64,000 bases of DNA from NCBI RefSeq assembly GCF_004365915.1, contig NZ_SODI01000001.1:2232001-2296000 (forward strand), in the 5' to 3' direction. Below the pieces are notes generated by a model. It was not told the DNA's origin. It made no database searches and saw only the letters and a program-made list of their open reading frames with translations. Position numbers and translations under genes: made by a program. Shown in pieces: positions 47,574 to 51,739 of the stretch; position 1 is the first letter of the stretch, and each line of letters opens with the position of its first letter. This stretch comes from Cryobacterium psychrophilum (GTDB taxonomy: Bacteria > Actinomycetota > Actinomycetes > Actinomycetales > Microbacteriaceae).

Positions 47574-48233
47574 CTAGGCTCGCGCGGCCAGCATCTCGGT
47601 CATGAGCTTGATTTCACTCTGCTGGCTCGCCACCACGGCCGTCGCGAAGGACCGAACGACGGAGTTGCCTGTGCGGTCCAGCACCGCCTCGGCCATGTCG
47701 ATCGCGCCTTCATGGTGCGCGATCATCAGGGTGAGAAAGATGCGGTCGGCCTCCACACCCGATGCCGCGGTGAGCGAGGCCATCTGGGCGTCCGTTGCGA
47801 GACCCGGCATCGGATCGCCGGGCTGATGCGCCCCGGCATTATCGTGTGTGCCGTCCGTGCTGCCCGGCAGGGTCATCCAGGTCATGGACGCCTCCGGTGG
47901 CGCCTGGCTCAGCCCCCAGACGCTTAGCCAGCCGAACATCTGACCGGACTGTTGGCCCTGCGTCGTGACGATGTCGTAACCGAGCAGGCGCACGGCCTCG
48001 TCGATGGAACGATCACGAATAAGCAGTCCCAGCTGCACACCCTGGTCGTGGTGCACCTGCATGTCGCGGGCGAATCCGGCCTCGGCGCTCGTGGAGACGG
48101 GCATCGGATCGGCGAGGGTGCTCAGTCGCCCCACGGAGAATGCCGACACGCCCACGATCACGGCGGTGAGGATCACCGCCACGAGAACAGCCGTGCGGCC
48201 ACGGCGCCGCGGCGACTCCGCCTCGCCCTCCAC
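47574..48233 (-). CDS. DUF305-domain membrane-anchored protein
   Basis: 219 aa. One N-terminal helix (about 18-38) anchors a ferritin-like four-helix domain outside. The two family motifs are present: MQVHHDQGVQLG and LMIAHHEGAIDMAE, whose histidines can bind metal (copper in some relatives). A hydrophilic insertion (about 105-140, GSTDGTHDNAGAHQPGDPM) adds further His. GTG at 48233 lies 3 nt after the upstream DUF3105 stop, a pairing often seen in actinobacteria, so the two proteins probably function together. Confidence 0.85.
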   Translation of the reverse strand: MEGEAESPRRRGRTAVLVAVILTAVIVGVSAFSVGRLSTLADPMPVSTSAEAGFARDMQVHHDQGVQLGLLIRDRSIDEAVRLLGYDIVTTQGQQSGQMFGWLSVWGLSQAPPEASMTWMTLPGSTDGTHDNAGAHQPGDPMPGLATDAQMASLTAASGVEADRIFLTLMIAHHEGAIDMAEAVLDRTGNSVVRSFATAVVASQQSEIKLMTEMLAARA

Positions 48234-48235
48234 GC

Positions 48236-48907
48236 CTAGGAAACCTTGCCGGGGGCGTCGACCCCGCCGGAGCATGGCGCGCCGATTTCTGGCGCAGTGC
48301 CGCTCTTCCAATACTCTGAGAAGAACTGCGGGAGCCGGGGGTCTTCAGCGGAGTCGAGCTGAAGCTGCACGTTCCAGCCGCTCAGCACGATCGGCGCCGG
48401 CGAGTCCTCGAAGGGCGACAGTACGACGTACGTTGAGGGCAGCAGGGCCTTGACGGCGTCGAGCTCGTCGGCACTTATCGCGGGGTCGTAGGTGACCCAA
48501 ATCGCACCGTGCTCAAGGGAGTGCACCGCATTCTCGCTGGGAATCGGCTGCTCATACACGCCGCAGTTGAGCCACGCGGGGTTGTGCTCGCCGCCCACGG
48601 GCGGCTTCTGGTCGTAGGAGACCGGCGTTTCCACGTGGCCGTTGCCGTTCTCAAAAGCGAGGGCGCCCTCGATCTTCTCGCCTGTGCCGCCGCCGGCATA
48701 GTTAGGGGCTTGCGGGGTGAGCACGACCATGGTGACGACGAGGCCGACCACGGCCACGCCACCCACAACGGCAGAGATGATGCCGATGCGACGGTTGCGC
48801 TTGCTGCGTTTCTGCTGGGCGTGAAAAACCTCGAGCTTCTTCGCGCGCTGGGCAGCGCGCTTCTCCTTCAAACTGGCTTGGTTCACGGGCGAGCCGGGCT
48901 GGGGCAT
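48236..48907 (-). CDS. DUF3105-domain membrane-anchored protein
   Basis: 223 aa. Lys/Arg-rich cytoplasmic N-terminus (SLKEKRAAQRAKKLEVFHAQ), one helix (about 42-62), then the extracellular DUF3105 domain with VGGEHNPAWLNCGVYEQPIP and HSLEHGAIWVTYDP, which hold the family's conserved His/Cys residues. ATG at 48907 follows GAGAGG at good spacing; a start five codons upstream (48922) is possible. First gene of a two-gene unit with DUF305; biochemical role unknown. Confidence 0.85.
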   Translation of the reverse strand: MPQPGSPVNQASLKEKRAAQRAKKLEVFHAQQKRSKRNRRIGIISAVVGGVAVVGLVVTMVVLTPQAPNYAGGGTGEKIEGALAFENGNGHVETPVSYDQKPPVGGEHNPAWLNCGVYEQPIPSENAVHSLEHGAIWVTYDPAISADELDAVKALLPSTYVVLSPFEDSPAPIVLSGWNVQLQLDSAEDPRLPQFFSEYWKSGTAPEIGAPCSGGVDAPGKVS

Positions 48908-48994
48908 GCGAGGACCTCTCATAGCGGTGCAATATCCCTCCGAATCTATCAGCGCGACCCGGTGATCTTCTGTATAAGTCCCCAGAGGGGCCGA

Positions 48995-49000
48995 TAGAGT
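48995..49000 (+). promoter_or_regulatory. Putative -10 element for a leaderless transcript
   Basis: TAGAGT fits the actinobacterial TANNNT -10. A start 7 nt downstream coincides with the GTG at 49007, so the leader peptide could be translated from a leaderless mRNA. No convincing -35 element is visible. Confidence 0.45.
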
Positions 49001-49006
49001 GGAGAC

Positions 49007-49048
49007 GTGCCTGTGCTTACCGCGTCTTCGTGTCGTTGCTGTTTTTAG
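49007..49048 (+). CDS. Cys-rich leader peptide (13 codons) before the transsulfuration genes
   Basis: The short frame MPVLTASSCRCCF starts with GTG at 49007 and stops with TAG at 49046. Three of its last five codons are Cys. No ribosome site precedes it, but a TANNNT -10 lies exactly where a leaderless mRNA would begin at the GTG. Leaderless polycysteine short ORFs are known in mycobacteria as cysteine-sensing attenuators of sulfur genes: ribosomes stall at Cys codons when Cys-tRNA is scarce. The position here, 144 bp before cystathionine beta-synthase, matches that role. The downstream competing structure could not be resolved by eye. Confidence 0.6.
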   Translation: MPVLTASSCRCCF

Positions 49049-49192
49049 CCGACCTTTTGAGCCGTGCCCCGGCTGCCCCGGGAAGCGGCGAAGCGGATGC
49101 CCGACATCGCGCTCCCGAGACTTCCCTCCTGCGATCCACGACCGCACGCCGCCGCTTTTCACTTTTACGAGACATCCGATGAAGGACACTCC

Positions 49193-50557
49193 ATGAAGAT
49201 CGCAAACACCATCCTTGACCTCATCGGCGACACCCCGCTGGTCAAGCTCCACAAGGTCACCGGAGACACCAGGGCGACCGTGCTGGTGAAACTGGAGTAT
49301 CTCAACCCGGGCGGATCGGCGAAGGATCGCATCGCGGTGCGCATCATCGATGCCGCCGAGCGCGACGGTCTGCTGAAGCCCGGGGGAACGATTGTGGAAC
49401 CCACCAGCGGCAACACCGGGGTCGGTCTGGCCCTCGTCGCGCAGCAGCGCGGTTACAAGTGCGTTTTCGTGCTGCCCGACAAGGTGGGGGAAGACAAACG
49501 CAATGTGCTCACGGCCTACGGGGCAGAGATCGTCGTGACACCGACATCCGTTGCTCCCGATGACCCCGAGTCGTACTACAGCGTTTCTGACCGCCTGGCG
49601 CGGGAGATTCCCGGTGCGTTCAAGCCCAACCAGTACTTCAACCCGAACGGTCCGCTCAGCCACTACGAGACCACCGGCCCCGAAATTTGGCGGGACACCG
49701 ACGGAACCGTGACGCACTTCGTGGCCGGGGTCGGCACCGGCGGAACCATCACGGGAACCGGCCGCTACCTGCGCGAAGTGTCGAACGACGCCGTGCGCAT
49801 CGTGGGCGCTGACCCCGAGGGCTCGGTGTACTCCGGCGGAACCGGACGGCCGTACCTCGTGGAGGGGGTGGGCGAGGACTTCTGGCCCGGCGCCTACGAC
49901 CCGGCCGTCGTGCACGAGGTGATCGCGGTCAGCGACGCCGATTCCTTCGCCATGACCCGCCGGCTCGCCCTCGAGGAGGGAATACTGGTCGGCGGTTCGA
50001 GCGGCATGGCCGTCGTGGCCGCGCTGCGCCTCGCGGAAACGCTCACCGAGCGCGACACGGTTGTTGTGCTGTTGCCCGACGGCGGGCGCGGCTACCTCGG
50101 CAAGATCTTCAACGACGGGTGGATGCGCAGCTACGGTTTCACCAACGCGCCGGCCGGCCACACGGTCGCCAACGTGCTTGAGGCGAAGACCGGCACGCTT
50201 CCACCCTTCGTCTACGTTCACCCGAGTGACACCGTTCATGACGCGATCGCGACAATGACGAGCCAGGGCGTATCCCAACTGCTCGTGCTTTCCGCCAAGC
50301 CTCCGGTGGTGATGGGTGAAGTGCTCGGCGCCCTCGACGAGCGCACCCTGATGGAACTGGTCTTCTCCGGTGAGGCCCAGCTGACCGACCGGGTCGGCGG
50401 CATCGTCGGTGAATCGCTCCCGCTCATCGGCGTGAACGAGCCGGTGTCCACGGCTCGCACGGCCTTTGCCCACTACGACGCGATGCTCGTGACCGACGGC
50501 GGCAAGCCGCTCGGCGTGCTCACCCGTCACGACCTGCTCACCTACCTGAGCGTCTAA
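49193..50557 (+). CDS. Cystathionine beta-synthase
   Basis: PLP enzyme joining serine and homocysteine to cystathionine, the first step of reverse transsulfuration to cysteine. 454 aa. PLP lysine is in LNPGGSAKDRIAVRII, with the substrate loop PTSGNTGVGLAL and the phosphate-binding loop VGTGGTITGTG. Residues about 335-454 form two CBS domains (FVYVHPSDTVHDAIATM and GVLTRHDLLTYL), the regulatory part that separates this from cysteine synthase. ATG at 49193 follows GAAGGA. Forms an operon with the PLP lyase 27 bp downstream; the Cys-rich leader peptide upstream suggests control by cysteine. Confidence 0.93.
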   Translation: MKIANTILDLIGDTPLVKLHKVTGDTRATVLVKLEYLNPGGSAKDRIAVRIIDAAERDGLLKPGGTIVEPTSGNTGVGLALVAQQRGYKCVFVLPDKVGEDKRNVLTAYGAEIVVTPTSVAPDDPESYYSVSDRLAREIPGAFKPNQYFNPNGPLSHYETTGPEIWRDTDGTVTHFVAGVGTGGTITGTGRYLREVSNDAVRIVGADPEGSVYSGGTGRPYLVEGVGEDFWPGAYDPAVVHEVIAVSDADSFAMTRRLALEEGILVGGSSGMAVVAALRLAETLTERDTVVVLLPDGGRGYLGKIFNDGWMRSYGFTNAPAGHTVANVLEAKTGTLPPFVYVHPSDTVHDAIATMTSQGVSQLLVLSAKPPVVMGEVLGALDERTLMELVFSGEAQLTDRVGGIVGESLPLIGVNEPVSTARTAFAHYDAMLVTDGGKPLGVLTRHDLLTYLSV

Positions 50558-50584: not shown

Positions 50585-51739
50585 ATGGCCAAGAAAAAGA
50601 ACTTCGACACCGTCGCCATCCACGCCGGACAGGCATTCGACCCGACGACCGGCGCCGTGATCCCGCCGATCTACCAGACGTCCACTTACGTGCAGGAGAG
50701 CATCGGCAACCTGCGCGGCGGGTACGAGTACAGCCGTGGCGGCAACCCCACCCGTAACTCGCTGGAGACCCTGCTCGCGGCCCTCGAAGGCGGAAAGCAC
50801 GGACTGTCGTTCGCGAGCGGACTCGCCGCGGAGGACACCCTCCTGCGTGCGATTCTCAAGCCGGGTGACCACATCGTGCTCGGCAACGACGTGTATGGCG
50901 GAACCCACCGGCTGATTGAACGCGTGCACGGCTCCTCCGGCGTGCGCAACACCACGGTCGATCTGTCCGACCTGCGCGCCGTCGAGAAGGCGATTATCGC
51001 CGGCGAGACGAAGATCCTCTGGATCGAGACGCCGAGCAACCCGCTCATGAAGATCAGTGATATCGCCGAGCTTGCCGACATCGGCCACCGCGCCGGCATC
51101 GTTGTCGTCGTCGACAACACGTTTGCGTCTCCCGCGCTGCAGAACCCGTTGTCGCTCGGCGCCGACGTCGTGGTGCACTCCACGACCAAGTACCTCGGCG
51201 GTCACTCCGACGTGCTCGGAGGCGCCCTCATCATCAACGATGACGAGCTTGCCGAGAAAGTCACCTTCCTGCAGTTCGCCGTCGGCCCGGTGTCGGCTCC
51301 GCTCGACGCCTGGCTCACCGTGCGTGGCATCAAGACCCTGTCGGTGCGCATGGACCGCCACTGCAGCAACGCGCAGGCCATCGCCGAGTTCCTCGACGCG
51401 CACGCCGCCGTGGAGACCGTCTACTACCCGGGCCTGCCCGCTCACCCGGGCCACGAACTCGCTAAGCAGCAGATGAGCGGCTTCGGCGGCATGATCGCCC
51501 TTTCCTTCAAGGGGGGCGCGAAGGCAGCGCGGAAGTTCTGCGAGTCGACCCACCTCTTCCAGCTGGCGGAGTCCCTTGGCGGCGTGGAATCACTCGTGAA
51601 CTACCCCGCGGAGATGACGCACGCCTCGGTGCGCGGCACCGAACTCGAGGTGGCCGACAACATTGTGCGTCTCTCGGTGGGCATCGAAGACGTGGCCGAC
51701 CTCATCGCCGACCTGGAGGCCGCCCTCCCGCGCAAGTAG
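50585..51739 (+). CDS. metB: Cystathionine gamma-synthase / gamma-lyase
   Basis: Cys/Met-metabolism PLP enzyme, 384 aa. PLP lysine lies in VVHSTTKYLGGHSDVLGG, with IPPIYQTSTYVQESIGNLRG, YEYSRGGNPTRNSLE and SLGGVESLVNYPAEMTH typical of the family. Sequence alone does not distinguish the synthase (making cystathionine) from the lyase (cleaving it to cysteine). Linkage to cystathionine beta-synthase favours a role in cysteine formation by reverse transsulfuration. A GAGGAG site precedes the ATG, and an inverted repeat follows the stop. Confidence 0.92.
   Translation: MAKKKNFDTVAIHAGQAFDPTTGAVIPPIYQTSTYVQESIGNLRGGYEYSRGGNPTRNSLETLLAALEGGKHGLSFASGLAAEDTLLRAILKPGDHIVLGNDVYGGTHRLIERVHGSSGVRNTTVDLSDLRAVEKAIIAGETKILWIETPSNPLMKISDIAELADIGHRAGIVVVVDNTFASPALQNPLSLGADVVVHSTTKYLGGHSDVLGGALIINDDELAEKVTFLQFAVGPVSAPLDAWLTVRGIKTLSVRMDRHCSNAQAIAEFLDAHAAVETVYYPGLPAHPGHELAKQQMSGFGGMIALSFKGGAKAARKFCESTHLFQLAESLGGVESLVNYPAEMTHASVRGTELEVADNIVRLSVGIEDVADLIADLEAALPRK

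Follow-up and report, generated by a model that had tools for sequence, protein, structure and literature searches.

A putative leaderless leader ORF with clustered cysteine codons upstream of the cbs-cgs gene pair in Cryobacterium and its relatives

In mycobacteria, leaderless polycysteine ORFs have been reported to act as cysteine-responsive attenuators (Canestrari 2020, as summarized in PMC13236596, PMC9094748 and PMC9031893), and excerpts from Shell 2015 (PMC4633059) place such ORFs ahead of cysA2, Rv0485 and nirA. Masking of the Shine-Dalgarno (SD) sequence by the RNA of the ORF, that is, translation attenuation, is described for this mycobacterial type in an excerpt from PMC13236596. Candidate leader peptides with runs of Cys are also presented, in the excerpted part of Seliverstov 2005 (PMC1262725), for B. 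longum cbs as well as for cys operons of Mycobacterium and P. acnes, with no obvious terminators. Among the matches listed in a literature search that covered subscription journals thinly, no Cys leader was found before cbs in Microbacteriaceae.

The locus analysed here resides within a 64-kb stretch of DNA, hereafter the window, where a sequence-only reading had proposed a Cys-rich leaderless attenuator upstream of two sulfur genes. Its features are as follows:

48995..49000, plus strand: TAGAGT, a -10-like promoter element (TANNNT) located 6 nt ahead of the mini-ORF GTG; read directly.
49007..49048, plus strand: putative leaderless leader-peptide ORF (mini-ORF) encoding MPVLTASSCRCCF, GTG to TAG, 13 codons; read directly.
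49031..49042, plus strand: Cys-Arg-Cys-Cys codons TGT CGT TGC TGT, the proposed stall site; read directly and supported by in-frame conservation across loci.
49049..49177, plus strand: spacer from the mini-ORF stop to the cbs ribosome site, C-rich (C 0.41, G 0.26), in which no intrinsic terminator was found.
49181..49186, plus strand: GAAGGA, an SD-like site of cbs, 6 nt before the ATG at 49193; read directly.
49193..50557, plus strand: cbs, cystathionine beta-synthase, the candidate controlled gene (TIGR01137, 589.8 bits against a cut-off of 510.25).
50585..51739, plus strand: cgs, a metB-like cystathionine gamma-synthase, second gene of a likely operon (NF005871, 644.7 bits against a cut-off of 513).

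The mini-ORF reads GTG CCT GTG CTT ACC GCG TCT TCG TGT CGT TGC TGT TTT TAG, such that its Cys codons occupy 49031-33, 49037-39 and 49040-42 and a single Phe codon separates the last of them from the stop. Direct reading thus confirms the 13-codon frame with Cys-Arg-Cys-Cys codons that had been placed at 49007. The accompanying statement that no ribosome site is present stands insofar as none lies at a usable distance, but a GGAG ends 3 nt 5' of the GTG, too close for a normal SD site. The downstream genes, which had been taken for the reverse transsulfuration pair, each score above the cut-off of their NCBIfam model and are separated by a gap of 27 nt; among named CBS proteins, the top match comes from Cryobacterium (91%). 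The mini-ORF therefore precedes genes of cysteine and sulfur metabolism, as do the mycobacterial-type attenuators. An Rfam scan of the whole window returned three tRNAs only and, in the leader, neither a riboswitch nor any other curated RNA family above gathering score. A structured leader as a whole was considered and rejected, the z score of the window leader being -1.09. Farther upstream, on the minus strand at 47574-48311, the window encodes a protein with a sub-cut-off match to the CopM metallochaperone domain (69.4 against 90 bits).

We propose, with a probability of roughly 0.8, that the mini-ORF is a Cys-sensing leaderless leader that attenuates cbs-cgs. The cbs-cgs transcript would begin at the GTG of the 13-codon ORF, which ribosomes would translate without a leader. 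When cysteine, and hence Cys-tRNA, is plentiful, the ORF would be cleared fast and the leader RNA would adopt a state that limits cbs expression, whereas scarce Cys-tRNA would stall the ribosome on the Cys codons near the stop and hold the RNA in a permissive state. CBS and CGS would then be made, and reverse transsulfuration would supply cysteine. The comparisons described below support the ORF as such, the frame in which it is read, a start without a leader and the association with cbs, and also favour the attenuator interpretation of the sequence-only reading, for which we infer the transcript start, the stalling and the response to cysteine.

The comparisons cover the genus and the family of the window. 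Within the genus, 57 genomes were searched, 56 of which contain a cbs match at E 1e-140, and the upstream DNA was examined in all 56 (the window, L086-L088, L195-L240 and L310-L315). The family search comprised 199 genomes with 143 matches; four of these belong to the genus, and 106 of the 139 others were examined (L089-L194), with 33 left out. The 156-genome set used for enrichment consists of the genus and family genomes examined minus L310-L315, and a set of 80 named loci (up to about 6.4 kb) overlaps these genus and family loci. Loci were assigned to class A when a Cys ORF of at most 26 codons carries TANNNT 6-8 nt 5' of its start, to class B when they are not A and TANNNT lies 4-10 nt before the cbs start, so that cbs itself is probably leaderless, and to class C when neither applies.

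By this scheme, the genus comprises 38 A and 18 C loci among 56 genomes, and the other genera of the family 29 A, 47 B and 30 C among the 106 examined. The conservation of Cys codons and stop across Microbacteriaceae, which had been suggested as a check, is thus widespread (38/56 and 29/106) but not universal, the leader being absent by class A criteria from 18/56 genus members and 77/106 other family members; likewise, the clustering of Cys codons near the 3' end of the ORF is conserved in part of the relatives, not in all. The peptides of the nearest relatives are MPVLTSCSCCCCLQPTL (L195), MPVLTSCSCCRCFQPTP (L196) and MPVLIACSCCCCIQPTR (L197). Read by eye, five of the 18 genus C loci (L087, L199, L200, L207 and L208) keep TAGAGT and a Cys-like run while GCG replaces GTG, and 12 of the 18 have no short Cys ORF by the class criteria. 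Both L087 and L199 contain an in-frame ATG 2 nt after the -10 element, and in L233, also of class C, the near stop is lost.

Beyond these loci, the leader occurs in two further family members (L245 and L246) and is missing in a third (L251). It is present in all three examined loci of family f13 (L248-L250) and in all four genomes with a cbs match in f4, a family of small genomes whose peptides end in CCCCR before the stop. The named loci with a leader include Promicromonospora, Occultella (two) and Georgenia. None was found in 57 loci of other families (L252-L289 and L291-L309, from 53 genomes), save for a chance-like far-upstream match in L309, nor was a Cys leader found in the sir-cysH surroundings of the same genome. 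On a CBS tree of 107 rows, which was built by a quick method and includes three identical pairs, trait A changes at least 12 times, with at least 7 changes forced by starred branches; since its root was not inferred, gain and loss of the trait are indistinguishable on it. The sequences compared here thus newly indicate a family-wide turnover between leaderless cbs and Cys-led cbs. An SD-like triplet precedes cbs in 57 of 60 Cys-led loci compared with 18 of 47 leaderless-cbs loci. Upstream of cbs in L008/L228, a Cys-free 7-codon frame starts 3 nt after TAGAAT, and its stop overlaps the cbs start as ATGA, a possible instance of translational coupling to cbs.

The TANNNT element had been described as lying at a leaderless distance, and this bears out across the loci. 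A promoter-independent search found a Cys-run mini-ORF in 74 of 166 loci, where 93 TANNNT-start pairs fall at distances of 0-20 nt (alternative starts of one ORF being counted separately). Of these, 67 lie at 6-7 nt (48 at 6 nt and 19 at 7 nt), with 26 elsewhere (including 8 at 12 nt and 5 at 19 nt). Where a leaderless start is followed by TGYTGY within the next 54 nt, the first such pair shares the frame of the start in 59 of 61 cases, whereas control starts that lack the -10 element distribute over frames 0, 1 and 2 as 66, 91 and 66. Similar peptides vary in length by whole codons, as in MLVRLKCPCCPGR, MLVRLKCPCCLSCPVR and MPVRLRCPRCPCCPGR. Of 60 leaders, 58 lack an SD-like core between -16 and -5; GGAG, AGGA or GAGG is present within 8 nt of the mini-ORF start in 18 of 60, the window included. 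Judged by promoter position alone, with TANNNT 6-7 nt before the start, the window ORF probably resides at the very 5' end of its mRNA.

Two motifs recur upstream of the mini-ORF. TCACAG is found in 20 of 60 leaders (L218 and 19 other Cys-led genus loci), at -55 from the mini-ORF start in 19 of them and at -56 in one, with a second copy 11 nt later in 10; it is absent in the window and represents a possible activator site. The second motif, CGAAC[GA][TC]AT, occurs in 28 of 156 loci, 20 of which are Cys-led (for example L195), and is positioned relative to the mini-ORF at -96 to -98 in 16 cases, at -66 in 2 and at -223 in 2. A degenerate form can be recognized by eye at about 48941-48953 of the window. 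Read on the minus strand, the motif contains TACGTT and so might serve as the -10 element of a divergent gene.

The output step may involve pairing of the mini-ORF RNA with the cbs start region, which would control cbs translation. In predicted folds of 36 representatives, the start region pairs with the mini-ORF with a probability of 0.34, as compared with 0.055 for the longer spacer; the value is 0.28 after reordering of the ORF codons and 0.25 after base shuffling. Shuffling of the spacer has a weak effect, shifting ORF pairing from 0.34 to 0.31 and spacer pairing from 0.055 to 0.12. Duplexes between the mini-ORF and the start region average -14.4 kcal/mol, compared with -12.8 for codon-order shuffles and -9.5 for spacer windows. 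No co-variation was seen between a mini-ORF and the cbs start region of the same locus, own and foreign pairings being about equal (-14.4, -14.0 and -13.8 kcal/mol). Over 60 leaders, modelling a ribosome halted at the first Cys codon lifts the mean accessibility of the SD from 0.40 to 0.55, no control position having been modelled. In the window, the SD region is largely free of pairing, with the spacer as its partner otherwise, a stall shifts its accessibility little (0.67 to 0.72), and ORF pairing (0.20) falls below the mean of its own codon shuffles (0.35). As mean pairing exceeds the controls only slightly and the effect in the window is small, translational masking is our first choice by only a little.

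A classical trp-type transcription attenuator was rejected, since an intrinsic terminator hairpin with a U-tract was found neither at 48900-49260 of the window nor, by a custom scan, in any of 60 leaders. This absence would suit the main alternative, in which the same sensor acts through Rho-dependent termination and the stalled ribosome hides a Rho-loading site immediately 3' of the stop. Such an arrangement is familiar from the tryptophanase (tna) leader of E. coli, where the stalled ribosome covers a Rho-loading site just past the stop codon. Consistent with Rho, C exceeds G in the spacer of every one of the 36 representatives, with the largest excess within 20 nt of the stop, whereas upstream of the promoter only 16 of 36 show this, and an excerpt from Seliverstov 2005 (PMC1262725) suggests Rho, as a weak prediction, for mycobacterial cys leaders. 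However, C also exceeds G in 29 of 36 Cys-ORF-free cbs leaders measured (of 40 given; mean C 0.39, G 0.30), and as these are C-rich too, the skew of the spacer is not specific; we therefore consider Rho-dependent termination a serious but somewhat unlikely alternative. Weak as the support for either is, control of cbs translation would be, by a small margin, the most likely output, with Rho termination next.

If translational masking does operate, codon choice in the leader may contribute to it. Cys is encoded by 86 TGT and 24 TGC codons in the 36 representative leaders, as opposed to 6 TGT and 52 TGC in cbs and cgs of 32 Cys-led loci (Fisher p 4e-18, with kinship not corrected for) and 8 TGT and 49 TGC in the 37 long ORFs of the window. 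This strong UGU bias of the leader is, on the sequences compared, new here. We venture, with considerable doubt, that UGU, rare in neighbouring genes, was chosen so that the Cys codons pair with the cbs ribosome site, and that lineages swap this arrangement with a plain leaderless cbs that is closed to this kind of control. Recoding the leader to UGC weakens the duplex from -14.4 to -12.9 kcal/mol, but lowers the folded probability merely from 0.34 to 0.31. If true, the sensor codons would double as the switch, and lineages would have alternated repeatedly between a Cys-sensing 5' end and the plain leaderless cbs.

The peptide itself could conceivably be the signal, such that a nascent Cys-Cys-Arg end arrests the ribosome depending on redox state or another ligand. 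In keeping with this, Arg is the last residue, directly before the stop, in 27 of 36 representatives, and Cys is typically found 2-5 residues from the stop. We judge this reading improbable, however, in view of the variable N-terminal sequence, length (8-26 residues) and Cys number, the Phe at the end of the window peptide, and the controlled genes, which suit the sensing of supply. In favour of the proposed attenuating leader, alignments of four groups show a largely preserved ORF next to a spacer with many indels. The distance from the mini-ORF stop to cbs ranges from 63 to 162 nt in the genus and family and from 81 to 315 nt in f4. A perfect 8-bp palindrome, GTCGTCGC-TGA-GCGACGAC, is present in L112, L129, L136 and L158 with the stop codon of the mini-ORF as its loop; a conserved hairpin across the stop is not general, the mean z over 36 leaders being -0.20 as compared with 0.05 for the spacer control.

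Returning to the proposed attenuating leader, its recurrence far exceeds chance expectation. An ORF no longer than 25 codons that contains 2 or more Cys codons, positioned 6-7 nt after TANNNT, starting with ATG or GTG and lying within 250 bp upstream of cbs, is present in 59 of 156 genomes, many of them close kin so that the cases are not independent events, and in none on the reverse strand; 60 dinucleotide-shuffled sets yield a mean of 0.15 and a maximum of 1. With at least 4 Cys, the count is 28 of 156, compared with 0 in the shuffles, and shuffling of the window's own 250 bp produces a leaderless ORF with at least 3 Cys in 3 of 20000 trials. When both strands were scanned (spacing 6-7, up to 30 codons, 2 or more Cys), the mini-ORF was the sole match in the window, and 21 of the 80 named loci matched, each once, upstream of cbs and on the cbs strand. 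These comparisons render a chance origin very unlikely. Although a Cys-codon-like run persists in L087, L199, L200, L207 and L208 despite GCG at the GTG position (read by eye), a chance frame or untranslated DNA or RNA motif (TGTTGTCG) is hardly credible given the in-frame first Cys pair (59/61), the low shuffle mean, the clustering of promoter spacing at 6-7 nt and the encoding of Cys by TGT as well as TGC.

If it acts as proposed, the leader would show that cysteine-responsive leaderless leaders are not confined to mycobacterial sulfur operons but also serve the reverse transsulfuration pair, in the family of the window and in others; its presence, its absence and the loss of its start codon among relatives offer many natural replicates for testing how it acts. 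SD masking aside, the window ORF displays the sequence-testable features of the mycobacterial type. Like the mycobacterial sORFs in the excerpts cited, it is short, leaderless by position, carries Cys codons clustered at its 3' end and precedes genes of cysteine or sulfur metabolism; unlike them, it is followed by cbs-cgs rather than cysA2, Rv0485 or nirA, and the cysteine response that is reported there is one we infer here. The leaders in the Seliverstov 2005 excerpt are likewise short ORFs with a run of Cys close to the stop, located before cbs in the case of B. longum, and lack an obvious terminator, all of which holds for the window ORF before cbs; this excerpt makes no mention of a leaderless start and deals with few taxa, as opposed to the family-wide pattern of presence and absence described here. 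The uORFC-8-2 of Rhodobacterales cysS (PMC8632094, in part) also has tandem Cys codons and is proposed to sense Cys-tRNA. In the excerpt, it differs in belonging to another phylum, in a U-run end consistent with an intrinsic terminator, and in the dominance of UGC, where the cbs leader uses UGU, and it is not described there as leaderless.
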